A stretch of 64,000 bases of DNA, taken from Novipirellula galeiformis (lineage in GTDB: Bacteria; Planctomycetota; Planctomycetia; Pirellulales; Pirellulaceae). Every line of letters starts with the position of its first letter. Position 1 is the first letter of the stretch. The stretch is from positions 820,212-884,211 of the forward strand of contig NZ_SJPT01000001.1 of assembly GCF_007860095.1 (NCBI RefSeq), given 5' to 3'. Shown here in pieces: positions 3,519 through 22,388 of this stretch. Position numbers and translations under genes: made by a program. The notes beneath the pieces were generated by a model. That model was not told the DNA's origin and searched no databases. It saw only the letters and a program-made list of their open reading frames with translations.

Positions 3519-3598
3519 CATCGCAAACTTGTTTCCGTTCATTGCATCCACGGCAAACGAACAAGGTTTCATCGGTCAATCACCACGGAAGACGCTTC

Positions 3599-4297: not shown

Positions 4298-4328
4298 ACG
4301 GAAAAGTATCGCCCATTTCCGCCCCTCT

Positions 4329-4450: not shown

Positions 4451-4505
4451 CATGGCGTTCGCGACGGTGGGGGCATCCGCAAGGGATTCTCGCTGCGGGT
4501 TTCTC

Positions 4506-4547
4506 GGTGACGTTGATGCGGTGACGTTGATTCAGTGACGTTGATTC
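4506..4547. repeat. 14-bp tandem repeat, three copies
   Basis: Three near-identical units of (G/A)GTGACGTTGATTC, the first with GC in place of TC at its end. They lie in the gap between the MITE-like element and the 3' end of the Gfo/Idh/MocA gene. Confidence 0.75.
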
Positions 4548-4632
4548 GGTTCATCGTCGCCCACCGTTCGTGAGGTTTCGGGTGAATCGATTGGTAACTT
4601 CGCTGTGTTCAAAACCTTCTTAGCCGCGTCGA

Positions 4633-7321: not shown

Positions 7322-7597
7322 AGCGGGCAAGTGGGGGTTAGGGCAGTCGTGGGGAGGTGCGTCGTGGCGTCACCAGAGTGACCGCCGCGACGTGAGTGAG
7401 GTTCACGCTCGACACGCCGGGTAATGTAAAAGACCGATGAAAAAGGTGCTAGTCAGAGACGCCGCGATTACCCCACGCCGCAATCTGCAATCGACTTGCG
7501 GTATGCTGTGCGTGATTCGGATTGCGAACACGCCCTTTCCGCGGGAAGGGTGAGTGCGACGCCCCCCCTATTTTTGTGGAAAGATAACGAGAACAGA

Positions 7598-8263: not shown

Positions 8264-8313
8264 CGAGTCGGCGTGGGGTCGCCAAGCAAATGTTCTTGTC
8301 GTCTCCCCAACGA

Positions 8314-9723
8314 TCACGGTACCTCGACATAGTTGCCGGGGCCGTTCATTGTTGCGAGACGCTGTAAAGTTCTGACGTGAGAGCCGATTGCCATGCAATT
8401 GATTTGCGTGTTTTTACCACCGCTTCGATTTTGCTGTGTGACTTGGTCAACCACCGAAGGCGTAAACTCGCCGTCGGAAAGCAAGACGACGGCATCGGGT
8501 TTCAATTGAATGGCAAGTAGCAGAGCATCCAATGGATCCGTGCCACCCTTGGGCTCAATCGCCTGTAATTCGGTTTGTAATCGGCTTGCACCTTTCAATC
8601 CGGCACTGCGATAGCCACCACCGCGAATTTGTAACGCATTGGTATTGAACAGCAGCAACGCAAATTGTTGCTTGGCACTCATTTGCCCGACAGCGTCGAC
8701 AATCGCGGCTTGCGTGCGGTTAAAACGATCGCCCTGCATGCTGCTACTGCAATCGAGCACGTAGATGACGGAGGCCACGTCGGGAGGCAGTATGAGTAAA
8801 TTCTGAGGGCCTGTTTGCAGGGAGCTTCGCAAGACACCCACCTCCAAACGCTGGCCCGTCTTTTTATCTCGAATGTCGTCAAACCGAGAGTCGTTGCTGC
8901 CCAACGCGGATGCCAAATCGGTGGGCCCTGTACCGGCGGGGTGAACCACTTCCCAGCCGAGCAGGCCCTGACTGGTGCTCTTCGTTGTGGGCATCGGAGT
9001 GCTTGCCGTACGGGGGCTGCGCGGTAAAGCAACGCCGTTGTTTTTAGCGACGCCCACGCTCGCACCAGAGTGCGGTTGGGCGTCCGATGACATCGATTCG
9101 CTCGTCACGATACCGCTAGGTGGCGTTTGAGTTCGAAGTGAACCGCTCGAAGACGACCCGGCATGACGATACGGAGGTGAACGCGAAGGCAACGGGTTCG
9201 AAGACGACGCAGCATTGGAAGGAGACGCCGTCCCCGAACGGGATGTACCCCCTGCGTTTACAGCGGCGGGTAAAGTGCCTGTGAACGCGTTGGTAGTCTG
9301 GCCACCGGCCTGGGAGGACGAGGTGTTTGCTGAACCCGAGGCGATGCATTGGCCACTACTGCTGCTACATTTTCCGCCGATCATCGGAGAACGGCAATTT
9401 TTGCACACGGCATTTCGACGTGGCGGCGAAGATGATGAGGGTATCGGCCTCCCGATCGTTGCCGACGTCGGCGACGAGTCTATGGCGGTTTGCGTTAGGT
9501 CCGGCTTCGTTGAGTTCATCGCTGCCGGCGGTGTCACGGATGATCGAGAACTCGATTTCTTCTTTAGGGGCGTCAGCGACATCGAATGAAGGAAGCGGCG
9601 GAATAAAATCGATTGTGGTTCCGCAGCAGATTTTTCGGGTCGTGGTTCGTCGCCACATGCCAAACTCGTCGACATCACGGTGGTCATGATCCCCAAACGA
9701 AGCAATGGGCTTAATGTTCGCAT
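8314..9723 (-). CDS. von Willebrand factor A domain protein, last gene of the GTPase/MotAB-like operon
   Basis: Start at ATG 9723, one base after the stop of the preceding gene; a TTG at 9753 is rejected. The 469-residue product has a hydrophobic N-terminus (MRTLSPLLRLGIMTTVMSTS) followed by LAC, so it could be a lipoprotein or exported. A long Ser/Pro/Thr-rich linker contains the Cys pair CKNC plus two further Cys (about residues 105-130). A vWA domain fills the C-terminal 150 residues with an intact metal-dependent adhesion site: DCSSS at 324-328, GGTD at 393-396 and LSDGE around 415. vWA domains bind protein partners through the metal. Tight coupling to the membrane genes suggests it is the outermost or ligand-sensing part of the complex. 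Confidence 0.85.
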   Translation of the reverse strand: MRTLSPLLRLGIMTTVMSTSLACGDEPRPEKSAAEPQSILFRRFLHSMSLTPLKKKSSSRSSVTPPAAMNSTKPDLTQTAIDSSPTSATIGRPIPSSSSPPRRNAVCKNCRSPMIGGKCSSSSGQCIASGSANTSSSQAGGQTTNAFTGTLPAAVNAGGTSRSGTASPSNAASSSNPLPSRSPPYRHAGSSSSGSLRTQTPPSGIVTSESMSSDAQPHSGASVGVAKNNGVALPRSPRTASTPMPTTKSTSQGLLGWEVVHPAGTGPTDLASALGSNDSRFDDIRDKKTGQRLEVGVLRSSLQTGPQNLLILPPDVASVIYVLDCSSSMQGDRFNRTQAAIVDAVGQMSAKQQFALLLFNTNALQIRGGGYRSAGLKGASRLQTELQAIEPKGGTDPLDALLLAIQLKPDAVVLLSDGEFTPSVVDQVTQQNRSGGKNTQINCMAIGSHVRTLQRLATMNGPGNYVEVP

Positions 9724-9724
9724 T

Positions 9725-10630
9725 TTATTGAACACTTGAAGCTCCTCCGCCAAGGAATACGATTAACGTTTCGCCATCGGATTGTGGCCACAATTGATAG
9801 GGTACCCCTTGCTGGATCATCTGTTCACGCAATTTTTCGAATTCGTCGTAAGATTCGGGCCAGATCGCAATGGTCATGGAATAGGCTTGTGACTTCGCAT
9901 CCTGAATGAGGTTGCGGAACTCTTGTTCTGCGACGCCGCTCGCCAAGTCCCATCCCGCACCGGGAATGGGATGGACCTGAATGCCTTTATCGGCGTTGGT
10001 TTTGGTGGATACCTGCGTGCTATTGAATCCTTGGTCAAACAGTGCCGGCATTTTGGCCAGGTACAGCGAACCGTCTCGAACCAACAGTAGGACGGATGTC
10101 ATGTTGCTCGAACGTACGCGTGGCAGTCGCAAGGTTTGCTGTTTCGCCTCGGCAAGACTCGCGTAATCGGCTTGAGCCTTGTTCAGTTGCTTGGTCGCTT
10201 CGTCAAGCTGTTGCGGAATTCGCTCGTTTTCAGTTCGTTGTTCTGCGTTTTTTTCCAACGTTTGGGCAAGCATTCGACTTGCGTTCGTTTCTGCATTGAT
10301 CGAGGTGTCCAATTGTTCCTTAAGTTGACTCTGGATGTAAGTTAAAGTTTGCAGCTCGGAGTCGTCAACGATCGAGGTCGATTGGGGGAACGCCGCCAGC
10401 GACATCTGCAGTTGTTTATATTGTGCCGATGCATCTTCGAGTTCAGCCATCGCGATTCGGACTTGTTCGGGACTTGCATGCTCGCCTTCATTGTTTTCTG
10501 ATTTCACAATCGACTGGTTTTGAATCATGATTGCAAGTAAGATTGCAAGGAAGACGATGCCGCCGAAGGTATTGCAGATCGTGTCAAGGAAAAGGTCAAA
10601 ACTCGCGGTGGTATCTCGCTGGCTTCTCAT
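9725..10630 (-). CDS. MotB/ExbD-like single-pass membrane protein, second stator subunit
   Basis: Its ATG overlaps the stop of the upstream stator gene (ATGA), and its TAA is one base before the vWA start, so it is translationally coupled on both sides. The 301-residue protein begins SFDLFLDTICNTFGGIVFLA, a membrane helix with an Asp just inside it, the position of the proton-carrying Asp of MotB and ExbD. A coiled coil follows at about residues 50-165 (QLKEQLDTSINAETNAS and similar), then a globular C-terminus of about 120 residues ending near LWPQSDGETLIVFLGG. No OmpA-like peptidoglycan-binding motif is visible. Known family logic: MotA-type channels drive such stators with the proton gradient. 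Confidence 0.75.
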   Translation of the reverse strand: MRSQRDTTASFDLFLDTICNTFGGIVFLAILLAIMIQNQSIVKSENNEGEHASPEQVRIAMAELEDASAQYKQLQMSLAAFPQSTSIVDDSELQTLTYIQSQLKEQLDTSINAETNASRMLAQTLEKNAEQRTENERIPQQLDEATKQLNKAQADYASLAEAKQQTLRLPRVRSSNMTSVLLLVRDGSLYLAKMPALFDQGFNSTQVSTKTNADKGIQVHPIPGAGWDLASGVAEQEFRNLIQDAKSQAYSMTIAIWPESYDEFEKLREQMIQQGVPYQLWPQSDGETLIVFLGGGASSVQ

Positions 10631-11457
10631 GGCGTGATCTCCAGTTCGTAGCTCAGGCGTACGGCATGATTTCGCCCTACCACCGTGAAGCCATAACTTG
10701 CTTTGTTGCTCGTGGACAATTGTTCGACCGTTTGGAAGTCACTTGCCCCGTCAGGTTCCACCAGCACTAATAGATGACGATGGGACATGGGCGTGGTTGA
10801 AAACCACTTCTTGAGTTGGCTGAGTCGCTTGGGGCCTCGAAAGACTTTCGCAGATCGCGTTAACGCATCGCGAATCTCAATCCTCCCGGACCCTAGCGTG
10901 ATCAGAGTCAGGTAGCGTCCTGCTTCGATTTCATCCCGATAGATTGTTGATTCGTCGCCGAGAAGCACATTCGCTTGCTCTTGAATTTGCTCGGCTTTCT
11001 TTGTTTGTTCTTGGATTTGGTTCCGCTGGGATGCAAGCTGAGCGGATTGTTCGCTTAGACGCGCCGTTTCTGCGTTGGCGATCGTGTTCTCCGCAGCAAG
11101 CTGGTTCGTCTTAGCGTCGGAAGTTTCGATTTGAGATTCGAGTGAGACATTCTGTTGTTTTAACTGCTCGACCTTGTCCTCAATGTTAAACGCGTTGACG
11201 TCCGAGGAACGGTTGGTCGCTTGAAAGCGTTCCGTGAGTTCGGATTCGATTTGTTCAATCTGCTGACGCAGCGTTGCGATCGTTTCGACGATCGGTTGGA
11301 TGTCTTCGGTGGGGGCCGTACTGGCGGTTTCCACCCGCTGTGCTAGTTCAAGAACCAAGATCAGCGTGATCAAGATAAAAATGCCAACCACCGCAGTGAT
11401 GATATCTTGAAAAGCGAAAAACGAGATTCCGGGCCCCGTGTTGCGACGTTTTGCCAT
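10627..11457 (-). CDS. MotB/ExbD-like single-pass membrane protein, first stator subunit
   Basis: The gene starts 12 bp after the MotA-like gene and overlaps the next gene by four bases. The 276-residue product starts MAKRRNTGPGISFFAFQDII, leading into a helix TAVVGIFILITLILVLEL with Asp at residue 18, as in ExbD and MotB. A strongly predicted coiled coil covers roughly residues 50-165 (many Gln, Glu and Ala, e.g. EQLKQQNVSLESQIETSD). The C-terminal 100 residues form a compact alpha/beta segment with RHLLVLVEPDGASDFQTVEQ. It resembles the second stator gene in plan but not in sequence. Having two different B-type subunits beside one A-type channel suggests a heteromeric stator. Confidence 0.78.
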   Translation of the reverse strand: MAKRRNTGPGISFFAFQDIITAVVGIFILITLILVLELAQRVETASTAPTEDIQPIVETIATLRQQIEQIESELTERFQATNRSSDVNAFNIEDKVEQLKQQNVSLESQIETSDAKTNQLAAENTIANAETARLSEQSAQLASQRNQIQEQTKKAEQIQEQANVLLGDESTIYRDEIEAGRYLTLITLGSGRIEIRDALTRSAKVFRGPKRLSQLKKWFSTTPMSHRHLLVLVEPDGASDFQTVEQLSTSNKASYGFTVVGRNHAVRLSYELEITP

Positions 11458-11469
11458 CGGACTCGTCCC

Positions 11470-12348
11470 CTAGGCTTCCCGCGTTTGTTCGTAAGGTAGG
11501 ATCTTGATGCGGCTCACGATTTGCTTCAAACAATAGTCTTGGCAATCGTCTAGAAACATCTCTTCTGCTTTACGCTGCGACGTGATCCAGAGCTGTATCA
11601 CCAGCGCTACCACTAGAGCCAATAGCGTCGTTTCAAAAGCGGTGCTCAACCCTCCGGTGACTTCTTTTAAAGAGCCGACAATCCCGGCAACGTCCGATTG
11701 CTTGTCGAGTAAGCTGCTGAAATTGCCAATCGCCCCGGCTAATCCCAACACGGTGCCGATAAACCCCAGCACCGGAATGGCCCACAGAAAGCCACCTAAA
11801 GTCGCAAAGGATGTTTGGTGTGACGATTCATCACGCTCCGCACTGGCTCGCAAAATGTCGTCGATGTCGCTGACGCGGCCTAGGTTTTTTAGATTCGAAA
11901 GAGCAATCAAGATGCGGTTGTAAACTAGAAAACGATTTGGATCATCGGCCAACGCATGGATGTTGCGGATCACATGATCGGCGGTTTGACTGGTCAATAC
12001 GAACTCATGATTCTCAGGAATGACGGCATGATCGAGGGCTTTACGTTGAATCGATAGCTTGCCGCGTTTAAGTAGCAAGATCACGATGCTCCAAAACCCA
12101 AGCAGCACCGTCGCATGTTGGGTCGGCCCACGCTCCAGTAGCATCGCTCGAAAATAATGCTCCGGCATCAAATGAACACCTGCGAAAAATGACGTTGTCA
12201 GCACCAACGCAATGATCCCCGAGAAACCAGTGTTGACAGCGGTTCCGTTTCCAGCCCCGACGCCAAATTTACGTTCCGGATCCGATTTGGCCACACTCAA
12301 CGGGCGCGGAAGTGGTGGGGCAGCTGGAGAGCGAGGAGGTAGACTCAT
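11470..12348 (-). CDS. MotA/TolQ/ExbB proton channel family protein
   Basis: The ATG lies two bases after the stop of the GYF_2 gene. The 292-residue product has a Pro-rich N-terminus (about 30 residues) and two early helices (GFSGIIALVLTTSFFAGVHL and TVLLGFWSIVILLLKRG). A cytoplasmic stretch follows, then the family signature: TLGGFLWAIPVLGFIGTVLG and GLSTAFETTLLALVVALVIQ. This is the pattern of TolQ/ExbB, with the conserved G-x-x-G-T-V-x-G and T-A-x-x-T-T-x-x-G/A-L positions. It is an inner-membrane channel that converts ion flow into movement of B-type partners, here the two genes just downstream. It lacks the long cytoplasmic tail known from ZorA of Zorya systems. Confidence 0.9.
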   Translation of the reverse strand: MSLPPRSPAAPPLPRPLSVAKSDPERKFGVGAGNGTAVNTGFSGIIALVLTTSFFAGVHLMPEHYFRAMLLERGPTQHATVLLGFWSIVILLLKRGKLSIQRKALDHAVIPENHEFVLTSQTADHVIRNIHALADDPNRFLVYNRILIALSNLKNLGRVSDIDDILRASAERDESSHQTSFATLGGFLWAIPVLGFIGTVLGLAGAIGNFSSLLDKQSDVAGIVGSLKEVTGGLSTAFETTLLALVVALVIQLWITSQRKAEEMFLDDCQDYCLKQIVSRIKILPYEQTREA

Positions 12349-12350
12349 AC

Positions 12351-13331
12351 TTAGTTCACTGCGTTGGAAGCCGCTGCGGCCATGACAAGGATCAGTACCG
12401 CAGTACCGACGAACAAAACGAGGAAAACGATGAAGACGGTCGCACTGTACCTCCAGAATGTGTATAGCTTCTGAATCGCCAACCCCAGGTGCACCATATT
12501 GCGCTGGCGATTGAGTGTCTTCAGGCTGGTGGCGTAATTCAATAGCAAGATCGCTCCAGCGATAAAGACGCCACAGTTAACCAGCCCCGATAAACCATAG
12601 ATGACCGAATAGGAACCGCCACGGGGAAACCATTTGGCATCCGCACCGACCACCATTGCGGTAACGAAATAGAGGACCGCAAAACCCGAACCCACGAGCG
12701 TGAAAATACTGAGCATCAACACCCAGGGACGGTGACGGAGGAATTGCTCACATACGTCTGCGGGAACCGAAGAGGTTGTGCCTCCGCTGGATACGGATTG
12801 GGCAACAGAATTGCCGTCTGGTTCGGTGACCGCCGCAGTGGTCGGAGCAAAGCGTTCCGGCATGCAAACGCTGGCCGGTCGCCAATCGTCGTAGCCCGCA
12901 CGCCATACCAACGTGTCGCGATGCACATCGCCGGTGCTAATCCACTGGACGAGCGTCTGGGAATTGATCGGGCCTTGGTTATCGCCGTTGACGTGCGCGT
13001 ACCACTGCACTCCATCCTCTGGCATCTGTCCGGGAATCGGTGCCGAAGTGGTCGAGGAGGGCTGGGCTGTCGCGTTCTGGGGCGTTGAGGTTCCTCGCGA
13101 TGGCGCGCTGGAGGTCGTTGCCGGGACGGTTGCGACCGCTTGAGGTTGATCTTGGTTTCGCTTTTGGAAAATGTCACCAAACGCTTCAGCACGCTGCCAT
13201 GCCAAACCATCGGACGACAATTCGTGCATCCGCGTGATTTGACCCCGGCGGATCAGTTCGCGAACTTTAGTATCGGTAAGCGGGCCTAACGTTTTGCCTT
13301 TGAAACGAACGTAGATGCGGTCATCACTCAT
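12351..13331 (-). CDS. Double GYF_2 domain (DUF4339) membrane protein
   Basis: Two copies of the GYF_2 fold are visible in the 326-residue product. The first spans residues 5-55 (IYVRFKGKTLGPLTDTKVRE then RRGQITRMHELSSDG). The second spans about 105-165 (VQWYAHVNGDNQGPINSQTL, then DTLVWRAGYDDWRPAS). GP, a G-x-I/V turn and a Trp near the end are the family's marks. Two or more helices follow (PWVLMLSIFTLVGSGFAVLYF; LSGLVNCGVFIAGAILLLNY; FIVFLVLFVGTAVLILVMAA). GYF domains bind proline-rich peptides in known cases, and the upstream GAP1-like protein carries a strongly Pro-rich linker, a natural candidate partner (inference). It lies in the operon between the large bitopic protein and the channel. 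Confidence 0.85.
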   Translation of the reverse strand: MSDDRIYVRFKGKTLGPLTDTKVRELIRRGQITRMHELSSDGLAWQRAEAFGDIFQKRNQDQPQAVATVPATTSSAPSRGTSTPQNATAQPSSTTSAPIPGQMPEDGVQWYAHVNGDNQGPINSQTLVQWISTGDVHRDTLVWRAGYDDWRPASVCMPERFAPTTAAVTEPDGNSVAQSVSSGGTTSSVPADVCEQFLRHRPWVLMLSIFTLVGSGFAVLYFVTAMVVGADAKWFPRGGSYSVIYGLSGLVNCGVFIAGAILLLNYATSLKTLNRQRNMVHLGLAIQKLYTFWRYSATVFIVFLVLFVGTAVLILVMAAAASNAVN

Positions 13332-13337
13332 GGGTAT

Positions 13338-16232
13338 TTACTTTGGATAAGAAAAAATGGGTCTTCCGGCGACGAGGTCCGCGTGAGAGTCCGACAATCG
13401 CGGTTGCCCCGCCTTCATTTCGCCCACGGAGACCCACTCCGCCTTGGTTTTGTCGCGTGGCGACGGGCGAACGATTGCCAAATTACAATCCGACTCCGGA
13501 GGGAGTTGGAGTTGCGGAGCGATTTGCCCACTGGTATTTCGGACGAGGATCCCCACCCATTCAAACCGTTGGTTACGAATCTGTGGAGCGATGGTTTTGG
13601 GGTTGGGACGTTCGGAATACAGACTCGCTAGTCGCGGAATCAATTCTTGTTCAATCGGTGGCGTAAACGTTGTGTTCTGGTTTGTTGGCTCATACCAATT
13701 TGCGATCTCGACATTGCGTTCCTTTAGCAATTGCAATTCGTTGACCAGGTTCGTGGACAAGTAATCGCTTCCCTCGCACGCTCCACTTAACAAATGTTGA
13801 AGCAACATTTCTTTGATTTGACCGTCAAGGTTTTCACGTTTTCTCAGGGTTGCTACCAGTTTTAGGAACTCGCCATCCCAGTCATCTAGTAATTGATTGT
13901 GCTGAGTTTGGTAGGCGACGAGCAGGTTGTGGATCGTTGCGTAGGGTTCTTTGTGAACGACGTACTCTCCGGTTAACAGTTGCGTTGCAACCGCTCCGGT
14001 ATCGTTGGTCACGACCTCGATGCTTCGCTGTTTGCTTGGTCCCTCGGGAAACGGACCAAAGCGGTCTTTGCTTCTCTGTTCGAAATAGGTTTTATAAATG
14101 AAGTGGCGGTTGCCGTTGCCATTGGACTCCACCACCGTAAACAGGTCGGCGATCACGGTATCGGGTAATCCACCGAGGACATTCTTGAGGATGCTACGAC
14201 GCTCGTCATATCGATCCAAACGGTCCATCGCCAATGCAGGCAGTTGAATAAGTGATTGATTGACCTGGGATTGCATCGCTGACTTGGAACTTTGCATCTG
14301 CATCATATTTCTCTCAGATAAAGTCGACTGAAGCGGTTTTACAACCGCGTCGACGTATTCGTTCCAGCTCAATGCCTGATCCCATATGGAGCGTTCTTCG
14401 GCGACGCGTTTGAATTCCTCCGCCATTGACGATTCAGGTAAACGCGAGGCAAATCGTTTCATTTCGGTGGCGAGTTGATCGAGTGACTTCGCCTCCAGCA
14501 ATGAGCTCAACAAGCGGCTTTCTTCCTCAACGCGTCCCATTTTCTTTTCAATCGCATTTCGCATCGAGATCACGCGTGGGCGAACCGAAGCAATTTGATT
14601 GCGAGCCGAGGTGGAGGCGCGAAGGTAGGAGCTTTGTAGTGAAGTCAATTCGTCGAGAACGTCGCCGAGCTGCAGTCGTGCGTCCTGGTTTGCCGGGCCA
14701 CGTTCAATCGTCTCGACTCGCTCGTGAATGGCCGTTAATTGTGCGAGCAATTGTTCGGTATGCTGGGACGCGATGGCAGATTCCCAATCGCTTTTACGTC
14801 GCTGCATGACGAAGACTTTGCCCCGTTCTTCGTCACTTTGGGCAAGCTCCTCCGCTCGGTGGAGTGCGGATAAATCAATATCGGAATCGAGCTCTGCGTC
14901 GGCTTCCGCCAAGTACTTTTCAAACTGAGCTTGACGCTCCTGATTTTGATTGATTCGCGATTGCAATTGTCCAGCAAACGAGGCGATCTCGGGAGTCGCG
15001 GCGAGCTGAGGATCGACTGCTGCTAGCTTGTTGTAGAAGGTGCTAGCGCCGTCGAGGTTGTCGCTATCCAGCAGCGATTGAAATTCGCTGGCTGTCTTGG
15101 CGATCCGCTTCTGTTGAGCCGACTCCAGTTGCCACCAAATCAAGGCAACGATCAGAATCGTCGCGGTCGCGAGGATCGCAGAGATGATTGCCTGGAATCG
15201 CCGCTTCTTGGTGAGTTGCAGTTCTTCAACGACGACATGATAGCGTTGGACCAATTCCTCTGGAGGCGGTTCGTCGTACAGGCTCGTTTGTTGATAGGCT
15301 CTTTCCAGATCATCAAGCGATAGCTTACGGTCGAGTGCCGATTCTAATTTGCCAATTGCCGCGGCGCGTTGGTTGCGTCGCAACGTCTCGCGATCCACTT
15401 CTTCGAGCCATAAGATCACGGGCTCGACCTGTTCGCGAAGCGCTGCGGGAAGCGGCGAACTCAATTGTTGGAGCAATTCGTTCCAAACCGTGAGTTGTTG
15501 GCGAGCGGTGGGCTCATCGAATTCACAAAATGCATCGTAGAGGGTGGTCGCGACGCTTTCGAGCTGCGCCAGTGTTTGAGAATCCGCGAGACGAGTGAGC
15601 GCCGCCTGAACTTGTTTGGCGATCTTTGCATCGGGACGAATGCGCCAAGCCGTTTGAGTCAGCTCTTCTTGCAGGCTGCGTAGCGTTTTAGGGTCTGCGG
15701 TGGAAATCAAGCGGGGGGCTTCGGTGGCGATTTGTTTATGCCGAACCTTTTCCCAGCTCTCAATATCCTCTTCCCAAACACTCGAACTCGCATCGACCTC
15801 GGCAATCCGCCGCAAGATTTTTAATCGCCAAGCGAGCGGAGCCCGGGCAATTGCCAGTCGACGGTGCCGCTTCAGTAGCGACTCGATCGGCTGGGTTTCG
15901 ACGATTGCTTCATTGAGCTGCTCCACATGATCGTGGTTGAGCGTCGGCGGAACGGGGATGTCGAGGAACTGCAAGATGTCGAACCAGCCCTCCAACTCCG
16001 CTTCGGGTATGTCAAGTTTGATTGCGTCGTCGATCGCATTGGGAGGGACGGAGGCTGATTGGATTGCCTCGCTACGCAGTCCCTTGTGCAGTAATGCGAC
16101 GGCCGCAGAGAGTCGGCCATTGACGCGTGTGACCTCGACGGCATAGGTCGCCGCCAGCGGTCGCAACGCCGCTTCGGAAATCCCGTCACGTTTGGCAAGC
16201 GATTGCCGAATCAATTCAACGATCGTCGCCAT
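13338..16232 (-). CDS. Large bitopic coiled-coil protein of unknown family
   Basis: The ATG shares its A with the TAA of the upstream gene (TAATG), showing translational coupling. The 964-residue product has no signal peptide. Residues 1-345 are helical and hydrophilic (for example LNEAIVETQPIESLLKRHRR), residues 346-368 are one membrane helix (FQAIISAILATATILIVALI), and about 600 residues follow, rich in Gln, Glu and Leu with long heptad-like stretches. The end is more globular (YEPTNQNTTF, then PQLQLPPESDCNLAIVRPSP). Positive charge before the helix (KKRR) predicts that the N-terminus is cytoplasmic and the coil periplasmic. I recognise no domain. Its topology matches that of the GAP1-like protein, so the two may run side by side across the membrane. 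Confidence 0.8.
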   Translation of the reverse strand: MATIVELIRQSLAKRDGISEAALRPLAATYAVEVTRVNGRLSAAVALLHKGLRSEAIQSASVPPNAIDDAIKLDIPEAELEGWFDILQFLDIPVPPTLNHDHVEQLNEAIVETQPIESLLKRHRRLAIARAPLAWRLKILRRIAEVDASSSVWEEDIESWEKVRHKQIATEAPRLISTADPKTLRSLQEELTQTAWRIRPDAKIAKQVQAALTRLADSQTLAQLESVATTLYDAFCEFDEPTARQQLTVWNELLQQLSSPLPAALREQVEPVILWLEEVDRETLRRNQRAAAIGKLESALDRKLSLDDLERAYQQTSLYDEPPPEELVQRYHVVVEELQLTKKRRFQAIISAILATATILIVALIWWQLESAQQKRIAKTASEFQSLLDSDNLDGASTFYNKLAAVDPQLAATPEIASFAGQLQSRINQNQERQAQFEKYLAEADAELDSDIDLSALHRAEELAQSDEERGKVFVMQRRKSDWESAIASQHTEQLLAQLTAIHERVETIERGPANQDARLQLGDVLDELTSLQSSYLRASTSARNQIASVRPRVISMRNAIEKKMGRVEEESRLLSSLLEAKSLDQLATEMKRFASRLPESSMAEEFKRVAEERSIWDQALSWNEYVDAVVKPLQSTLSERNMMQMQSSKSAMQSQVNQSLIQLPALAMDRLDRYDERRSILKNVLGGLPDTVIADLFTVVESNGNGNRHFIYKTYFEQRSKDRFGPFPEGPSKQRSIEVVTNDTGAVATQLLTGEYVVHKEPYATIHNLLVAYQTQHNQLLDDWDGEFLKLVATLRKRENLDGQIKEMLLQHLLSGACEGSDYLSTNLVNELQLLKERNVEIANWYEPTNQNTTFTPPIEQELIPRLASLYSERPNPKTIAPQIRNQRFEWVGILVRNTSGQIAPQLQLPPESDCNLAIVRPSPRDKTKAEWVSVGEMKAGQPRLSDSHADLVAGRPIFSYPK

Positions 16233-18997
16233 TACTTAGCCTCCTCGGTGAGCGTGAGTTGCAATGAGAGAGAAAAATCTACTTCAAAACTATCTTTGCT
16301 AGTTTGGAAAAGGTTAGCGCCTTTGCTTTGTTTTAAAAGAAAAAGTTTTTCTTCGGGCACCGGAGTTGGTTTTGACAACTCGCTGATTAGTACATTTATC
16401 CGTTCTTGTTTAATTATGAATCCGTTCAGGTTCTCTAGCCGCAACGGTAGCGGCGTTAGGTATCCAGAATGTTTTTGAGACTCTTGAATGGCTTTTATAC
16501 CGTCGTGGTGTTTTTGGAGCTCTTTTAAGGGAGCGTTTGTTAGGTGTTTCCAGTCCTTCTTGATCAGCGATTGAACTTCGCCACGTATCTTATTTATCTG
16601 TTCTATTTCAGCGTTTTGGGATTCAAGTGCCTGCTTTCTTTCCGTGTCCTTTTCGGCTTGGATTTTTGAGTCAAGGAACGTTTCTTCTGTCCAATTGTTT
16701 ATTGCTTTTTTTAACGCATTGGCTTCATCGAGCGTTTTTATTAGTTCGTTGCAATTAGCGTCAAAACTTTCCGTAGACGATTCGTTGTAGCGAGGACCGC
16801 CTTTCGCCGTTATGCGCGGCCGATATTCAATGATTATTTCAGAGCTTTCCTTTGGGGACTCTGATTGGATCTTGAGTTTGAGGAAGTTTTGATTTGGATA
16901 GTCGACTTCAGCGATTTCACCTTTCTTAAGTTTCTTAAACGAGAGACTGGCTGTTTTATCTTTTGCATCTTGCTCCCATCGAAACGATTCCATTTCGGAT
17001 CTCTTCAAACTGATGGGAAGTGTCTTGGCTCCCGAAATATTCGTAGGATTTTGAGAATCGAAATTGATTCGCACCAACAGCAATTTTTCTTTCTCAACTT
17101 GTTCTTGCGCAATTTTTTGCGTGGCAATGTGTTTATCCAACTCCTTTTGAATTTCCACGATCTGCTTACTGACTATCAGGGCTTTATCAATTCGTTCTTG
17201 AAGCATTGAAAATGCTTCAAGTTTTTCTTCCCATTGTTGTTTTAGTGCAGTTTCTTCTCTCGCTAGTGCGGCTTCATCGATGGGGAGGAATGCTTGGTTT
17301 GCAATTTGTTGCAATTTTTTCAAGCGAGTGGATGCCTCTGGAACCAAAACGAAATATTCCTCGTTTGCGTTCATAAAAACGTTGAGATGGTCAATCATCG
17401 TTGCAACGCGTTCATTGAAACTGGATTCTTCTTTCCTTCGTGTCGCGTAATACTCGCTAATTGACTTGAGGTTTTGATCGATTGAAGCAATGCTTGCTAC
17501 CAAACCTGATGGGGGCTCAGTGTCTCGTACTCCGCGAAACTGCTTCAACGTTTCCTGTCTCACTTGATCGCCTATTGTTTCGCCGACCTCAGACTTCAGT
17601 TGTCCAACAATTTCAGTCTGATCCACAGAGAAATCAACAGATTGCTGGGGGTCAAATCGAAGCTTCCCAATTGCGTCCTCGATTTCCACAAGCGCGGCTG
17701 GAGCAACTGGGCTGCTCAGGTCGAGCTCTGGTTTAGTTGTTTTTGTGACGTACTTCAGATCCTTGATTTCGTTCTCAAGCTTGAGAAACGGAATTTCAGC
17801 AGTCTCTTGTATTCGCCGACGTTCGCCGATTTCGTCTACTTGTTCATTGTCTGAACCTTCGATGTCTTTAGACGATACGGATTTGTGTCCATCAATTTTC
17901 CAGTTGAGAATAATAGGAACTGCGCCGGCAACAATCAGTAGCATGAGACCGGCGATTCCAAGCAAAACAGCGGTTCGGGAAGAGCGAGGATTGGATCGAA
18001 AGGGGGGCTCTGATGGAACGCGTGGTGGTGGCCGTCTCGAACCTGTGGCAGGACGAGGGGTTGGCGGTTGGAGTGCGTAAGACGGATCGCTCATCTGTGG
18101 CGGTGACCCTGCACCCACCCCGGCGGCGGGCGAATCGTGGGCCTGCGTGATCGACGGTGCGGCGTTTGTCGCCCCGACCGGGTCGGCTGCTTCCCCTGTT
18201 TTGAAGCCGTTTCTAGCCAGCTCGATCAGCGGTGAAGTGGCGGTGAGCGTTTGAGGCTGCGTGAGATCAATGACGCCGCCGCGTGCCGATGCCAAACGCG
18301 CTTCCTCGGTCCCGGCGAGGACGCAGCGGACTCGGCACTCAATCTCGGGCGGCAAGTTAGTGTAATAGGTGCTGAAAGTGGTCAACCAACGCTCCGCTTC
18401 CGGAAGAAGTGCGATCGATTCGTTAAGCAGTGACAACAGTTCAGCGTTTTGCGATAGATCGAAGATGATCCACAATGGCCGTGCGGCGGAAGCACGAAAC
18501 GTGTCTGCGACGTGACCACCCCAACCGGCATCGCCCATCACCGCTTTCCAGGCTTGGCAGATCGCGGGCACTTGGTTTTGCATCGGAATGGCGGGACCGG
18601 TCGGAGGCGTTTCGTTGTTGCCATCCCACTGTTCACGCAAAATTGCTTTTTGACTTAGCACCCACGCGGGTCCTGCCGGAGCCTGTTCGAAAGCTTCCGC
18701 CACAACATGGTGCGCCAACTTGTTGCTCCGACCGCTGTAGTCCACCCCATACGCAGATATCCGCGATAGGACGCTTGAAGAGATTCCCCCAACCTTGACT
18801 CGCAAATGCGAATAACAAATCGGGTTCGTCTCCGCGTTGGCATCCTGGGGCGGAAACACATGACGATAACCCGAGAGTGTTTCGAGCCGCGAGGCGAGAT
18901 TGACCGGCATTCCGGCGGTACTCAATACCGTGCAAAATCCGCGACTGCCTTGGCGTAGTCCCGAGGTCGTCGAGGTGTACAGCAATTCCAAACTCAT
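16232..18997 (-). CDS. GAP1-N2-like (GTPase-associated) bitopic coiled-coil protein
   Basis: The gene overlaps the GTPase gene by four bases (ATGA). Residues 1-245 of 921 have the pattern I associate with the GTPase-associated protein 1 N-terminal domain: LLYTSTTSGLRQGSRGFCTV, LSGYRHVFPP, CYSHLRVKVGG, and DYSGRSNKLAHHVV at 87-100. A Pro/Ser-rich linker follows (about 270-340, PPTPRPATGSRRPPPRVP), then one membrane helix (342-364, AVLLGIAGLMLLIVAGAVPI), then about 550 residues dominated by coiled coil. Family knowledge, from memory: GAP1 genes sit beside TRAFAC GTPases in predicted conflict or signalling systems. From about 16250 to 17900 the bases are visibly AT-richer than in neighbouring genes, so the coiled-coil part may have a separate origin. 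Confidence 0.8.
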   Translation of the reverse strand: MSLELLYTSTTSGLRQGSRGFCTVLSTAGMPVNLASRLETLSGYRHVFPPQDANAETNPICYSHLRVKVGGISSSVLSRISAYGVDYSGRSNKLAHHVVAEAFEQAPAGPAWVLSQKAILREQWDGNNETPPTGPAIPMQNQVPAICQAWKAVMGDAGWGGHVADTFRASAARPLWIIFDLSQNAELLSLLNESIALLPEAERWLTTFSTYYTNLPPEIECRVRCVLAGTEEARLASARGGVIDLTQPQTLTATSPLIELARNGFKTGEAADPVGATNAAPSITQAHDSPAAGVGAGSPPQMSDPSYALQPPTPRPATGSRRPPPRVPSEPPFRSNPRSSRTAVLLGIAGLMLLIVAGAVPIILNWKIDGHKSVSSKDIEGSDNEQVDEIGERRRIQETAEIPFLKLENEIKDLKYVTKTTKPELDLSSPVAPAALVEIEDAIGKLRFDPQQSVDFSVDQTEIVGQLKSEVGETIGDQVRQETLKQFRGVRDTEPPSGLVASIASIDQNLKSISEYYATRRKEESSFNERVATMIDHLNVFMNANEEYFVLVPEASTRLKKLQQIANQAFLPIDEAALAREETALKQQWEEKLEAFSMLQERIDKALIVSKQIVEIQKELDKHIATQKIAQEQVEKEKLLLVRINFDSQNPTNISGAKTLPISLKRSEMESFRWEQDAKDKTASLSFKKLKKGEIAEVDYPNQNFLKLKIQSESPKESSEIIIEYRPRITAKGGPRYNESSTESFDANCNELIKTLDEANALKKAINNWTEETFLDSKIQAEKDTERKQALESQNAEIEQINKIRGEVQSLIKKDWKHLTNAPLKELQKHHDGIKAIQESQKHSGYLTPLPLRLENLNGFIIKQERINVLISELSKPTPVPEEKLFLLKQSKGANLFQTSKDSFEVDFSLSLQLTLTEEAK

Positions 18998-20343
18998 CGC
19001 TTGTCTCCATTACGTGATGCTGCGCTCGGGTTAGCAAGTTGATGTTGCGATGAAGCGACCCGGCGTTGGGATCCGATCAAACCACGCGACCATGTCGCCA
19101 AGGCGTAAAGCATCGGAACTTCGACCCAGTAAGGTTTGATATTGCGGGGACGGATGCCGAGCGTCCCGGTTTCGGTATCGACTTCGGGACCGACACCCGT
19201 GGCACTGACCGGAACAAAAACAAGATCGCGTGCAAATCCTTGTGCCGACGCAACAATCTCAGGACAAAATTCTTGCAGTAAAGCTTCGACTGCGTCGGAG
19301 GTTTCGCGAATGCGATCACTATCGAGCGTCCGCAGAGAATGATTTTGATGATCGATGTAGGGATCCTTCGTGCTCAACTCCGGTAACAATTCCTTCCAAC
19401 TATCCCATTTCGTGACTACGATGATCATCGGCCGTTGGTGTTGTTCGTCTTCGCGCAAGCCCGCATGACGCCGCACTCGACTGATCGCTTCCAATAAGAT
19501 CGTGTCTTGACGAACGCTTGCTTCACGTTGCAAGCGAGCGTTTCGCGGTTGCATTTGCGGATCGTGACTCTTGCCTTCACAAGCGCGCCGGAATCGCGGG
19601 TCCTGTGTGGGGTCAAAACAAAAGAAAAGGCAGGCGGAGTGAGCCAAGTGTCGTGTTACGGGACTGGTGACCGAATCGGCTCCTGGCAAGAAACTTTCTC
19701 CGGCGTTGTCATACAAACAAATCACGCGTGAGGCGGATTGCGCCTGTGCGTGATTTGGGTGTTGCGCGATCGGTTGCAGTGTGAACAGAAAAGGACGAGG
19801 CAGCGTGATCGAGTGATCGCCCATTTTGACTTGGTCGTACAAGTCGCCTTGGGTTTCCGTTTTGGCAATTGAGACCAATTCGTCGGGATCAGCACTCAGA
19901 AATTGTTGCTCCTCGTATCCGTGCAGCCTCGCGTTGGTGGAGGCGTCCGCATCATTGAGTGAAACTTTGAAATGGCGTGGCAGAAGTTGTCGAAGTTGCC
20001 AGGTCATCGACGCCAAGAAATAGCTTTTGCCGCAAGCGGGTGCCCCCAGAATTGAATAAAAGATCGCCGGCAATTGGTAAAGAGGACGCGAAACTTCGAG
20101 ATGACAATTCGGACACGCTAATCGTGTCGTGCGGTAACCCTCGGTGTCGATTGCATCTCCTTCCGGTGAAAAACGCGAAGGTAAGAAACGGACCGCATGC
20201 ATGTCACCCAGTTTGGCATCGCCTAGTAAGTCGGGATGTTCTGAGACCCATAGCGAATCTTCTGGGGCAAAAGCGTGCCAGCAGTGAGGACAGGTGACTT
20301 GATTCAATAGGGTCAAACGACCCGCAGACGGTGAGGAGGACAT
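18994..20343 (-). CDS. Zinc-ribbon GTPase of the double-GTPase (DO-GTPase2-like) type
   Basis: Start at ATG 20343; the TTG at 20361 is less likely. The 449-residue product opens with a split zinc ribbon, C18-x-x-C21 (VTCPHCWHAF) and C77-x-x-C80 (LACPNCHLEV). A P-loop follows, GAPACGKS, at 100-107. A G3-like CLYDNAGESF has the Asp at 212 and Gly at 215, and the G4-like VVTKWDSW has TKWD at 311-314, which together identify a GTPase and not an AAA or kinase P-loop. SATGVG late in the chain fits the G5 position. No membrane helix is present. The family is known next to GAP1 proteins. Here it is the first of eight coupled genes and is likely the cytoplasmic switch of the machine. Confidence 0.85.
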   Translation of the reverse strand: MSSSPSAGRLTLLNQVTCPHCWHAFAPEDSLWVSEHPDLLGDAKLGDMHAVRFLPSRFSPEGDAIDTEGYRTTRLACPNCHLEVSRPLYQLPAIFYSILGAPACGKSYFLASMTWQLRQLLPRHFKVSLNDADASTNARLHGYEEQQFLSADPDELVSIAKTETQGDLYDQVKMGDHSITLPRPFLFTLQPIAQHPNHAQAQSASRVICLYDNAGESFLPGADSVTSPVTRHLAHSACLFFCFDPTQDPRFRRACEGKSHDPQMQPRNARLQREASVRQDTILLEAISRVRRHAGLREDEQHQRPMIIVVTKWDSWKELLPELSTKDPYIDHQNHSLRTLDSDRIRETSDAVEALLQEFCPEIVASAQGFARDLVFVPVSATGVGPEVDTETGTLGIRPRNIKPYWVEVPMLYALATWSRGLIGSQRRVASSQHQLANPSAASRNGDKR

Positions 20344-20403
20344 GCAGGGCTCGGAGGACAAGCGGGGCGATGAATCAGAGGGTGGGGGCGTTCAGTACAG
20401 CGG

Positions 20404-21231
20404 TTAGAATTGAGAACGCGAATATTCCGCTAACTTTGACTGATAGCGTGATAGGAACGCTTCGTGTTCTTCTAAAAGTGTGCCAGAAAGGGCACGTACG
20501 TTTTCGACGTAAAAAGTGAATTGGTAGCTGTCCCGAGCAACGGAGTACCGGATCCACCCTGAGCGACGGCTTTTTTGCTGATCCCCTGAAATTGGCGATG
20601 TCCGCTTTTGCCGTGCAAATTGGATTTTGGCAAATGAATTGCGATTACCTTCCGATAATTGCCCCTCGACTCGAACAATACTCCCCATCTTCAGTTGCCT
20701 CGCTTGACTCGGAGAAGTCACTACTGTGATGTTTGCGGCGTATTCATGCCCCGGAAAGGTTGGATCACCAAGGGATAAAAGGAAGGCTTGCTTGTGACGG
20801 TTCAAAGACTTGCCTGGATCAATATCCTTTAATGTAAAGTGAATGGCAAGCTTCTGGCCTTTGAATGCACTCGAGTAGTTCTCTCTAGCCGTTTGTAGCA
20901 AATCATCCCTGACGAGTGGATTGGCCGCCGTCTCCGCCTCATCCGAGGCGGTTTCCAAGGCAATGATCGCACCGTCAATCACTTGTAACACAGAAAAAAA
21001 CTGACGTTCCCATGCAGGAACCGCTAACCGCGTTTCCTCAAGGTTTGAATGCTCATCAGAGACGGTGGGGCGATCCGACTCCGATTTTCGTTTGAGCAGT
21101 TGGGCGTGACCAACGCTAGGGAAAACCAGCGTAGAAATAGCAAACAATGCAGAAACAACCAATCGTGCAATAATGCGTTGCGCTGAGACGCGGAGGTGGG
21201 GAAAGCAGTGTGGCGTCTGTATTGCCTGCAT
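20404..21231 (-). CDS. Exported protein of unknown function, first gene of the GTPase cluster
   Basis: Start taken at ATG 21231, because it gives a signal peptide: basic region HLRVSAQRIIAR, hydrophobic core LVVSALFAISTLVFP, and a cleavage-like GHAQ near residue 45. The frame is open further, to 21381, without protein-like features. The mature part (about 230 residues) is hydrophilic, has KLAIHFTLKDIDPGKS and a beta-rich stretch with a GSIVRVEGQLSEG turn resembling an OB-fold-like strand pair, and ends with a helix-rich LLEEHEAFLSRYQSKLAEYS. I do not recognise a family. Its stop is 60 bp before the GTPase start on the same strand, so it probably shares the operon, as a periplasmic part or a transcriptional neighbour only. 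Confidence 0.7.
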   Translation of the reverse strand: MQAIQTPHCFPHLRVSAQRIIARLVVSALFAISTLVFPSVGHAQLLKRKSESDRPTVSDEHSNLEETRLAVPAWERQFFSVLQVIDGAIIALETASDEAETAANPLVRDDLLQTARENYSSAFKGQKLAIHFTLKDIDPGKSLNRHKQAFLLSLGDPTFPGHEYAANITVVTSPSQARQLKMGSIVRVEGQLSEGNRNSFAKIQFARQKRTSPISGDQQKSRRSGWIRYSVARDSYQFTFYVENVRALSGTLLEEHEAFLSRYQSKLAEYSRSQF

Positions 21232-22388
21232 GACAAATTCAAAAGGTAGGGTTGAGCGAGTTGACGGCACTCCAGTGCTAATTGTCGCTCGGGTTGCTGG
21301 TGGGGTGCGAATAGCTTGATCGGTGCGCTGTTGCAAAGCAAGTGCAAATGGGAATTGCGGAGTTGCGTGCAGAACGCACATGTTTCATCGAATCTGTGTC
21401 CGAGGTGTCGCTCAATCATCTTGATGGAGAGTCTTCAAGACCATTTTCCGTTCGTGCCCAAATTTTGCTAGTTGCTAGAAGACGCCTATGTAGGTTATGA
21501 GAACGCAGTAGGAATGAGAAAGAGTTAGAACAAGTGATGTTGGCCATAGAGAATCAATTCGCCGACAAGTCAACGATTTGCTTTTGCGAAAAAAGCTCCA
21601 ATCTGATGCAATGGGCTGGTCCCGGTCGAAGGCAATCTCCGTTTCAAGTTTTTGAGCGAAGCAGGCGGGGCCGAATGAAAGTGGCGAATTCAGTTGCGAT
21701 ATCGAATGACAATGCGTCACGTTGGATGAACATGCGGACAGACATCAATGGGTGCTTGCATCATGTATGGCGGTGACGTCGTTCACGGTTCGCGATGAGA
21801 GGGGGCAGAATCGCGGACCTCACATCCGATGCGCAGCAACACATCTCTGTCGTTGCCTTCGGAAATCAAAAATGCCACCAGATTGTATTTCGACTCGAAC
21901 CACTGCGCGAGAATGAACACCATGGTGGTCTGCTGCCCCAGTGCCGCCGCTTCGCTGTATTTCGCTAGCCGCCGAGGCCTAAGGGATGCGTCCCGTCCGC
22001 AGGTTCGAGCGCAACGGTCCGGTGTGTTCCGCAGAGGGGTGCGGACGCCTCTGTTTGTCTGACGCCGCAAGTATCTAGATACCCATTGGGGGCTGGGATT
22101 CGACGTGGCCGTACGTTCAGTGAGCAGTCGTTATATTTTGCAAAAACCTTCTATTTTAACACCAGGAGGTTGATTGCGCTGGCTTGATCATTAGGATGCT
22201 CTTCTGAGTCACCCCCTCCGAAGAAGGCCTTCTGGAGACGTGCTTGCATGAAGTTCTATGGCGGGGTGTTTGGGAAGTTGAGCGTCATTGAGGGCGCGGT
22301 CAGGCACTGAGAGATTCCCCGATATTCGGTCGGGGAAAGGGGGCAAAACTTAAACGAATTTTTTAGACAAAGAGATTGAGATCTAGAG
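21232..22388. other. Noncoding gap upstream of the GTPase cluster and the PEP-CTERM gene
   Basis: About 1.15 kb with divergent genes on both sides, so promoters for the nine-gene cluster (leftwards) and the PEP-CTERM gene (rightwards) must lie here. A minus-strand frame at 21783-22070 has a protein-like middle (TTMVFILAQWFESKYNLVAF) but no ribosome binding site or known domain; it could be a gene remnant. No repeat array or RNA gene was recognised. Confidence 0.5.
22315..22337 (+). promoter_or_regulatory. Leader hairpin upstream of the PEP-CTERM gene
   Basis: TTCCCCGA pairs with TCGGGGAA across a 7-base loop, 51 bases before the ATG at 22389. No T-run follows, so it is unlikely to be a simple terminator. 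An RNA-level control element or mRNA-stabilising hairpin is an inference. Confidence 0.4.

Follow-up and report, generated by a model that had tools for sequence, protein, structure and literature searches.

The window analyzed here, a 64,000-nucleotide stretch of the Novipirellula galeiformis genome, carries eight co-directional minus-strand genes with gaps of no more than 12 bp, running from a GTPase gene through genes for GAP1, a large protein that we call "big", a double-GYF protein, a MotA-type channel subunit and two stator-like proteins (stA and stB) to a vWA gene. Adjacent genes overlap at GTPase/GAP1 (4 bp), GAP1/big (1 bp) and stA/stB (4 bp), and are otherwise separated by 6 bp (big–GYF), 2 bp (GYF–MotA), 12 bp (MotA–stA) and 1 bp (stB–vWA, the ATG of the vWA gene lying one base past the stB stop). 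The original prediction of a locus that combines GTPase/GAP1 with MotA/MotB-like genes was confirmed at its coordinates, all on the minus strand. Its count of nine genes holds for eight and is too high, because the exported protein placed at the head of the locus (20,404–21,231, minus strand; signal-peptide-like, with an ATG inside a longer open reading frame and no Pfam match) has a relative in only one of 92 loci (L028), a count in which many of the 92 loci show only part of the neighborhood; we do not retain it as a member.

For statements on gene order, 25 of the 92 loci that stop short of big and 14 with less than 2.8 kb beyond big (3 of them T2SSE loci) were dropped, leaving 53 informative loci, in which the GTPase and big are both present and the sequence continues for 2.8 kb or more past big.

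The GTPase, its partner GAP1, and big

The GTPase gene (18,994–20,343, with an ATG start in an open reading frame that runs from a TTG at 20,361) adjoins GAP1 on its upstream side and encodes a DO-GTPase with N-terminal zinc ribbons: two CxxC pairs, a GxPxxGK P-loop, a DNAGE motif (Walker B with Glu) and a KxD motif are present, and C24/C27, C83/C86, G106, P108, G111, K112, D218–E222, K318 and D320 are invariant in all 12 family members. The window protein alone falls below the Pfam cut-off (DO-GTPase2, E 0.019); the same model is matched by 11 of the 12 members (E ≤0.1; best 3e-10). GAP1 (16,232–18,997) matches GAP1-N2 (E 9e-24) and GAP1-M (E 1e-10), both above the Pfam cut-off, and has one transmembrane (TM) helix at about residues 345–363, between the cytoplasmic GAP1-N2/M domains and a large periplasmic part. 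The periplasmic part is hypervariable and fast-evolving, with a mean pairwise identity of 10.2% compared to 38.4% for the cytoplasmic part (n=20). Both assignments stand in profile searches, and the profile failure that the original prediction had named as telling against it did not occur. The 12 GTPase-bearing genomes are also the 12 strongest GAP1-N2 matches (at least 87 bits) among 199 genomes. The pairing of GAP1 with the GTPase, which the original prediction had assumed, is present; the name itself means "GTPase-associated protein 1", a partner rather than a demonstrated GTPase-activating protein (PMC7159879).

The third gene (13,338–16,232) encodes big, which comprises a helical cytoplasmic domain, one TM helix at about residues 348–366 and a periplasmic part, and is conserved beside GAP1. 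An AlphaFold model of its N-terminal 349 residues is all helical (mean pLDDT 92.4). The protein matches no Pfam family above its cut-off; Foldseek returned a best E of 0.029 with TPR proteins among the top matches, and the best VIA comparison (Z 9.2 over 128 residues, rmsd 20.9) was no better than helical background. Judged by its conserved position, big is the third constant component beside the GTPase and GAP1.

The GYF protein (12,351–13,331), a putative adaptor, carries two GYF_2 domains (Pfam, two stretches, E 9.3e-20) and three TM helices predicted from hydropathy; in 41 of the 53 informative loci a relative follows downstream on the same strand. PP motifs occur in the juxtamembrane linker of GAP1 in 29 of 43 GYF loci versus 3 of 7 T2SSE loci (p 0.23), and in 6 of 56 linkers of big; docking of the GYF protein to the PP motif of the GAP1 linker may be taken as a weak lead. 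Docking on the proline-rich N-terminus of MotA was considered and rejected: that N-terminus is present in the window protein and is not general among 27 rows.

The channel, two stator-like proteins and the vWA gene

The channel subunit (11,470–12,348) is of the MotA/TolQ/ExbB type, as originally proposed: it matches MotA_ExbB (E 3.3e-11; 43.5 bits, Pfam cut-off 22.9), and G198 and T231, together with the pore threonines T199, T240 and T241, are conserved in 27 of 27 rows. A search of PDB sequences with the MotA profile gave no match at E 0.01. Downstream lie stA (10,627–11,457; N-terminal TM helix with Asp18, coiled coil, conserved C-terminal domain) and stB (9,725–10,630; N-terminal TM helix with Asp16, coiled coil, putative TolR/ExbD-like periplasmic domain), which are paralogues of each other (hhalign probability 98.8, E 9e-17). 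The aspartate lies within the TM helix and is conserved in 32 of 32 rows for stA and in 23 of 24 for stB, the remaining row being a fragment. A fold comparison, which covers stB only (model pLDDT 75.7), ranked TolR 5by4 (Z 6.7, 86 aligned, rmsd 3.0) and ExbD 8pek (Z 5.8, 78 aligned, rmsd 2.8) first and second among 999 chains aligned with VIA-align, both below the Z 8 guide. No TolR or ExbD appeared among the best 50 Foldseek matches listed for stB, and the best matches of stA to solved structures were coiled-coil. We take stA and stB as stator-like because of the conserved TM aspartate and the ranking of TolR and ExbD at the top for stB; the MotB/ExbD-like label of the original prediction holds to this extent but not at the level of Pfam, where no MotB/ExbD model matched either protein, and hhalign against 10 ExbD domains of the same genome gave probabilities under 1.

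The last gene (8,314–9,723) encodes a vWA-domain protein (Pfam VWA_2, E 2.7e-8) with a long Ser/Pro-rich N-terminal stretch. Among the 15 loci where the place after stB was visible, a vWA gene follows stB in 5 (the window, L030, L038, L046 and L068) and not in the other 10 (L016, L017, L021, L027, L047, L048, L053, L055, L060 and L064), so that the vWA gene recurs as the end of the locus, as had been predicted, but is not constant. A vWA profile matched in 2 of the 92 loci, most of which end before the vWA position, and a vWA motif scan of four tandem loci (L073, L076, L088 and L095) found none. The four relatives, in L030 (L158), L038 (L159), L046 and L068 (L167), all consist of a TM helix, a linker and a vWA domain; these four, and a cut open reading frame of the same kind at the vWA position of L043, have a PP.P motif within their first 40 residues, ahead of the TM helix. 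The window copy has no TM helix in any minus-strand frame and lacks the PPP tail of its relatives. The GC content at codon position 2 of its N-terminal half is 0.66 compared to 0.38–0.49 in the other genes, which the Ser/Pro-rich linker can explain. The window vWA gene may reflect decay or an error in the start site.

Linked inheritance of the core and the motor cassette

The GTPase–GAP1–big core recurs across Planctomycetota and relatives, with the GTPase found in 12 of 199 genomes. The expectation that homologues would be found together in other genomes was borne out, gene order being kept across distant planctomycetes. A MotA-family channel lies downstream on the same strand in 21 of the 53 informative loci, 20 of which have stA and 17 stB (the remaining 4 are cut off by the locus edge), and upstream or divergent in 5. 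The remainder hold a GYF-T2SSE pilus-type ATPase (4 loci; matches of E 1.7e-96, 2.3e-96 and 4.7e-96), a PilM-like gene (6 loci; PilM_2 E 1.3e-6, 6.7e-8 and 7.5e-11, with AAA also in L091 and L106), an unrelated 880-aa membrane protein (7 loci) or no engine that could be seen (10 loci). Redundant loci were kept in these counts: L089 and L095 come from overlapping parts of one contig and have a single cassette between them. With L032–L034 being near relatives as well, the loci are not independent.

Strong stB matches occur in 6 of the 199 genomes, all six among the 12 GTPase-bearing ones (Fisher p 1.2e-8, relatedness ignored); in one of the six (G102) stB lies on another contig. The linkage is far above chance, because the channel lies downstream in 21 of 53 loci and stB is confined to GTPase genomes (6/6). 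Across 20 loci, the window included, MotA and GTPase distances correlate with r=0.73, a value reached in 0 of 500 permutations, and those of big and the GTPase with 0.71; this co-inheritance may mirror species relatedness. A channel tree of 40 rows, several with long branches, places 25 same-strand GTPase-neighbor channels on one side of a branch (support 65/96), apart from three GTPase-less cassettes (65/96, not starred).

These data bear on two alternatives in which the GTPase is not the switch of the motor. GTPase–GAP1–big–GYF and MotA–stA–stB could be two adjoining, functionally separate operons: in 27 of the 53 informative loci no channel was visible, and related cassettes exist without a GTPase. 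Given the 2-bp GYF–MotA gap in the window, the repetition of the linkage across families with its co-divergence, and the restriction of strong stB matches to GTPase-bearing genomes, we regard such a separation as very improbable. Alternatively, the cassette could be a Tol/Ton-like outer-membrane energy module for uptake or envelope constriction, with GTPase/GAP1/big tuning its expression or position. The genome has 12 MotA_ExbB matches (the window's own included) and 10 ExbD matches; a cassette with MotA, stA and stB relatives and no GTPase lies elsewhere in it (G000:C1:423904-428662), and another genome (G203:C46, L162) combines a big-like gene with MotA–stA–stB and shows no GTPase within the 19 kb visible. 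PMC12204202 proposes that vWA proteins of PVC bacteria, encoded beside tolQ and a pair of tolR-like genes, are TolA/TonB-like transducers, and vWA proteins with a TM helix and linker occur in the four relatives above. This module is nevertheless improbable, as the nine window proteins have no TonB, TolA, TolB or Pal Pfam match, the GTPase-neighbor channels separate from the GTPase-less cassettes in the tree, and strong stB matches are again limited to GTPase-bearing genomes of the sample.

A proposed GTPase switch for envelope machines

Each half of the locus has a published counterpart. Kaur et al. (2020, eLife, PMC7159879) described GAP1-N2 systems of planctomycetes that include GYF-TM genes, in a main text where TolQ, ExbD, ExbB, proton, flagell- and MotA do not occur; compared with these GTPase-centric systems, our locus adds big as a constant third part and a proton-motor cassette, and its nine window proteins have no fibronectin-III Pfam match up to E 1, a threshold that a divergent periplasmic FNIII domain could escape. 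For PVC bacteria, gene clusters that combine vWA, tolQ and two tolR-like genes were described in 2025 (MBE, PMC12204202), in a main text without the word "gtpase". Like these force-transducer clusters, our loci have a TolQ-like channel, two heterologous TolR-like genes and, in 5 of 15 cases, a vWA gene downstream. The transducer architecture (TM helix, disordered linker, vWA) is held by L030, L038, L046 and L068, whereas the window copy has the vWA domain and a low-complexity linker beside channel genes but no TM helix. According to PMC12204202, the TM helix of many PVC vWA proteins contains an SHLS motif, which was not seen by eye here, and a TPR gene co-occurs there; the GTPase/GAP1 core is constant in our system. 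The original claim that the combination is not a named system thus stands for the join of the GTPase/GAP1 part with the motor cassette, of which we found no description in the literature open to search, but not for the halves.

The locus resembles Zorya (ZorA/ZorB) in pairing a MotA-type channel with a single-TM partner, and differs in having two different partners, a GTPase core and no ZorC or ZorD. Membership in Zorya was rejected: matches were weak and generic (ZorA2 E 4.8e-5, ZorB1 E 0.024), and the ZorC, ZorD and ZorE models had no match in eight of the nine proteins and, for stA, none among the best 25 of 26 matches. A conflict system against phages or other invaders, in which GAP1 would sense the invader, the GTPase would set a threshold and the channel would depolarize or remodel the envelope in a Zorya-like manner, is an unlikely alternative. 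GAP1-N2 systems, with a constant core and variable effectors, are so classed in PMC7159879; the locus is patchy (12/199 genomes), the GAP1 ectodomain is hypervariable and the engine differs between loci; and L053 has LeoA-like and LeoBC-like matches, with an HSP70/MreB-like gene just upstream. Variable parts around a constant core also fit such a system. However, the pilus-type ATPase and PilM engines are not known as toxins, motor and GTPase co-vary, and ZorC and ZorD are missing. PADLOC (E 1e-8) matched 3 of 10 neighbors across six related loci (in L053 the LeoBC-like and LeoA-like proteins, in L016 a weak phospholipase-effector match). At E 1e-5 it matched one of the 10 proteins that flank the locus in the window, which Pfam identifies as an ABC-transporter-type ATPase. 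With these results a defense-island setting was rejected. The one Pfam family for motility or secretion among the same 10 flanking proteins was an inverse autotransporter, which weighs against the motor reading favored below.

A further system close to the locus is the Agl/Glt gliding machinery of Myxococcus xanthus, which likewise has one MotA-like channel (AglR), two Asp-bearing MotB/ExbD-like subunits (AglQ and AglS) and GTPase control. Within that machinery, GltJ has a zinc ribbon as well as a GYF domain. The two systems differ in that the GTPase there, MglA, is small and Ras-like and its GAP, MglB, is of the Roadblock type, whereas our locus has a DO-GTPase and GAP1-N2 with no Roadblock match; and AglQ/AglS match Pfam ExbD, whereas stA/stB do not.

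The reading that we favor, at somewhat better than an even chance, is a planctomycete GAP1-N2 GTPase system with a proton-driven 5:2-type envelope motor as its output; its protein contacts, gating, stoichiometry and cellular purpose we infer as follows. The periplasmic part of GAP1 would sense something in the periplasm or at the surface, and its GAP1-N2/M domains would control which nucleotide the zinc-ribbon GTPase carries; big, with its helical domain, TM helix and periplasmic arm, would be a fixed scaffold between switch and engine; the double-GYF protein may dock proline-rich tails, for example the GAP1 linker or, in the vWA protein, a cytoplasmic tail that bears PPP; a MotA-type pentamer and the two stator paralogues, each with one protonatable Asp, would turn proton flow into periplasmic force, perhaps as a 5:1:1 heteromer; and a membrane-anchored vWA protein would pass this force on in some loci. 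The GTPase-gated motor of the original prediction is thus supported in its parts, GTPase/GAP1 being joined to a channel and two stator-like proteins, while the gating itself stays putative; the 10 loci without a visible engine and the 7 with the 880-aa protein count against it.

In relatives the core has a pilus-type ATPase linked to GYF, or a PilM-like gene, as its neighbor, so that it would serve more generally to switch envelope machines for surface force or transport. We propose tentatively, as a possibility that falls short of probable, that in the planctomycete group GTPase–GAP1–big acts as the common switch of exchangeable force engines in the envelope: in some loci a 5:1:1 proton motor with one channel, two different Asp-bearing stators and a vWA transducer whose PPP tail would be held by GYF; in other loci a GYF-tethered PilB/GspE-type ATPase; and in Lentisphaerae/Victivallales a PilM-based inner-membrane platform.

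Gene context is the basis on which GAP1-N2 GTPases have been placed among immune-like systems, with no function tested in the passages of PMC7159879 consulted, and the recurrent link to proton-motor and pilus-type engines gives them a concrete, measurable output. The locus is a candidate second case in bacteria of an ion-driven motor gated by a GTPase. With its two different stators it would also allow the idea of heteromeric 5:2 motors to be examined, which PMC9389320 leaves unsettled for AglQ/AglS. In Myxococcus, one GTPase, MglA, stimulates both type IV pili and the proton-driven gliding machine, as described in PMC9481161 and PMC9120999. If the exchangeable-engine proposal is true, the planctomycete switch would be an independent counterpart of this control of gliding and pili, and this part of the "conflict system" class would be surface machinery.

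A conserved core beside a variable engine

The ORF map of the window bears out the tight minus-strand gene run of the original prediction: eight packed genes lead from the zinc-ribbon GTPase (18994-20343, minus strand) through GAP1 (a GTPase-associated protein), a helical bitopic protein that we call "big", GYF, MotA and two stator-like proteins (stA and stB) to the vWA gene (8314-9723, minus strand), each neighbouring pair either overlapping by 4 or 1 bp or lying no more than 12 bp apart. GAP1-N2, GAP1-M, the GYF_2 pair, MotA_ExbB and vWA all have Pfam matches; the window GTPase by itself falls under the Pfam cut-off, yet 11 of 12 members of its family hit DO-GTPase2 with E values no higher than 0.1, and two CxxC pairs, the P-loop and the DNAGE (Walker B) and KxD motifs are invariant in 12/12. 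The exported-protein gene, which ends 60 bp before the GTPase ATG, had been counted as part of the set and is no longer counted with it here, as a profile search found a relative in 1 of 92 loci, many of them showing part of the neighbourhood. About 2 kb upstream of that gene, on the same strand, lies a gene for an inverse autotransporter beta-domain protein of repeat-like sequence (23174-25543, minus strand; Pfam IAT_beta, E 2e-12).

The GTPase is present in 12 of the 199 genomes sampled from the phylum, and these are the same 12 that have the strongest GAP1-N2 matches (87 bits or more) among 17 with any match. The best 80 of 424 relatives from a scan of named genomes, and 12 further stretches, made up the 92 loci, in which profile searches of the ORFs identified GTPase-GAP1-big as the constant core. 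The gene order expected in other genomes recurs in this core, with a MotA-type channel downstream in 21 of the 53 loci that have at least 2.8 kb past big, to which all engine counts are restricted. Loci are not independent in these counts: L089 and L095 overlap and have one cassette (MotA-stA-stB) in common, and L032-L034 are near relatives. stA was found in 20 and stB in 17 of the 21 downstream-channel loci, the other four stopping at the locus edge; the channel is upstream or divergent in 5/53, four of them tandem arrangements. A GYF relative follows big in 41/53 loci. A membrane protein of 880 aa that belongs to no Pfam family occurs in 7/53, a PilM-like gene in 6/53, and a GYF-T2SSE fusion in 4/53 (plus 3 in loci too short for the count); in 10/53 no engine of these kinds was seen. 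Upstream of the GTPase, L073, L076, L088 and L095 have a MotA-stA-stB cassette that looks like a second system, and L073, L076 and L095 an additional stA-stB pair without its own channel. The locus of the closest relative, L027 of Rhodopirellula solitaria, has a DDE transposase gene upstream (7752-9371); downstream of stB, its 20397-21299 protein has no Pfam match and resembles a REP/Y1-type transposase.

The locus is genuine and conserved, and it represents a variant within a class already described: PMC7159879 names GAP1-N2 systems and their zinc-ribbon GTPases, and includes a planctomycete form in which a GYF pair goes with a TM-rich region. PMC12204202 (2025) describes clusters of vWA, tolQ and two tolR-like genes in the PVC group, with the vWA proteins proposed as TolA/TonB-like transducers. 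In word searches of the two texts, neither PMC7159879 nor PMC12204202 was found to name the other's half; among open-licence papers, none was found that joins a GAP1-N2 switch with a channel/vWA cluster, and the output module was not found reported there. PMC7159879 interprets GAP1-N2 systems as conflict systems; a defence role for our locus seems rather unlikely to us. In L053, the stretch upstream of the GTPase locus (2613-8722) has matches to LeoBC-like and LeoA-like proteins, and an HSP70/MreB-like protein is encoded there too. The window protein at 26181-28088 (plus strand) matches PADLOC mad3 of the anti-phage ATPase models (E 2.4e-46); Pfam classes it as an ABC ATPase, with ABC_tran matched twice (E 3e-53) and ABC_tran_CTD once, and its defence match is probably generic.

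A candidate ion-driven motor

We lean slightly towards a reading in which a putative GTPase/GAP1 switch would gate a proton motor of the 5:2 type, as the most economical one for the locus. Judged by its alignments, the channel carries ion-motor residues: Thr199, Thr231, Thr240 and Thr241 of MotA are invariant (27/27 rows); Asp18 of stA is present in 32/32 rows; and Asp16 of stB is present in 23/24, the odd one being a fragment. stA and stB are paralogous (hhalign 98.8). Sequence profiles gave no tie of either to ExbD or MotB, and Foldseek alone gave no TolR/ExbD match for stB among the first 50; upon VIA realignment of the stB periplasmic domain against 999 chains, TolR ranked first (Z 6.7) and ExbD second (Z 5.8), both below the guide value of Z 8. 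Given their position beside MotA, we treat stA and stB as putative stators of the TolR/ExbD type, going by their architecture and likely fold.

MotA and GTPase pairwise distances are correlated (Spearman r 0.73, n = 20; 0 of 500 permutations as high), big comes close to this value (r 0.71), and GAP1 is lowest (r 0.39; 2 of 500 permutations). When split at the TM helix, GAP1 has a mean pairwise identity of 38.4% in its cytoplasmic vs. 10.2% in its periplasmic part, the latter 341 to 840 in length, and big has 30.0% vs. 18.3%. These values suggest that GAP1 tracks the GTPase least because its periplasmic part is so divergent; it is this divergence that gives GAP1 the look of a receptor whose outer part evolves quickly. 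The MotA tree has a branch (65/96, unstarred) that sets the 25 same-strand GTPase-neighbour rows apart from three cassettes without GTPase and from other MotA/ExbB proteins of the window genome. Strong stB matches (128 bits or more) occur in 6/199 genomes, every one with the GTPase, and the next match has 66 bits; in one genome, G102, stB and the GTPase are on different contigs.

The three cassettes without GTPase—L143, L145 and a second MotA/stA/stB-relative cassette of the window genome (G000:C1:423904-428662; L140:5904-10662)—have the Asp in stB and, by eye, not in stA; GTPase-linked cassettes have it in both. In two further places, a big-like gene accompanies stator genes, and the visible stretch contains no GTPase. 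In L162:9170-14143 (G203:C46), the second channel cassette in the genome of L048, MotA, stA and stB come after a gene similar to big (225 bits), and the 19 kb seen contain no GTPase; L142:7903-12067 (G056) has stB-like (131 bits), weak stA-like and weak big-like ORFs, with neither GTPase nor MotA relative in the 16 kb seen. This pairing hints that big belongs on the motor side. A succinylarginine dihydrolase gene lies upstream of the L162 cassette.

The vWA gene

Most loci end before the place of the vWA gene, and we therefore read further downstream in ten genomes. In 5 of the 15 loci (window counted) with 900 bp or more visible past stB—the window, L030, L038, L046 and L068—a vWA gene lies directly 3' of stB. 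The proteins of the four relatives (L158:2410-3423, L159:334-1317 and L167:5529-6569 in further reads of L030, L038 and L068, respectively, and L046:16487-17431) begin with a PPP-rich tail, after which come a TM helix, a linker of low complexity and finally the vWA domain; a cut ORF after stB in L043 encodes an N-terminus of like kind. L068 is from Botrimarina colliarenosi. Neither PPP tail nor TM helix was found in the window copy, which may be altered. In L048 and L053 the place is taken by a trypsin-type gene, from similarity to L047 of Stieleria tagensis. It is plausible from these sequences that the PPP tails would be ligands of the GYF domains.

Other engines beside the same switch

In L063:13674-15617, L077:13813-15660 and L085:9706-11598, the gene directly after GTPase-GAP1-big fuses GYF_2 to a type II/IV secretion ATPase (Pfam T2SSE, E 1.7e-96, 2.3e-96 and 4.7e-96, respectively), and GAP1 is short, terminating at the TM helix. 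L081 has a GYF-trypsin fusion, a form mentioned in PMC7159879 (2020). In Lentisphaerae/Victivallales loci, a PilM-like gene is first or second after big, followed in L091:15527-20469 and L106:15689-20602 by genes for a pair of short proteins and then for an AAA ATPase; in L091 the PilM-like protein has a TM helix and the short proteins are single-TM. The short Victivallales proteins, of 295 and 217 aa, are termed PilO/PilP-like from size and topology alone. One switch thus stands beside at least two types of force engine. Myxococcus MglA, which stimulates pili and also the gliding motor (PMC9481161, PMC9120999), offers an analogy, not a homology: two machine types under one GTPase.
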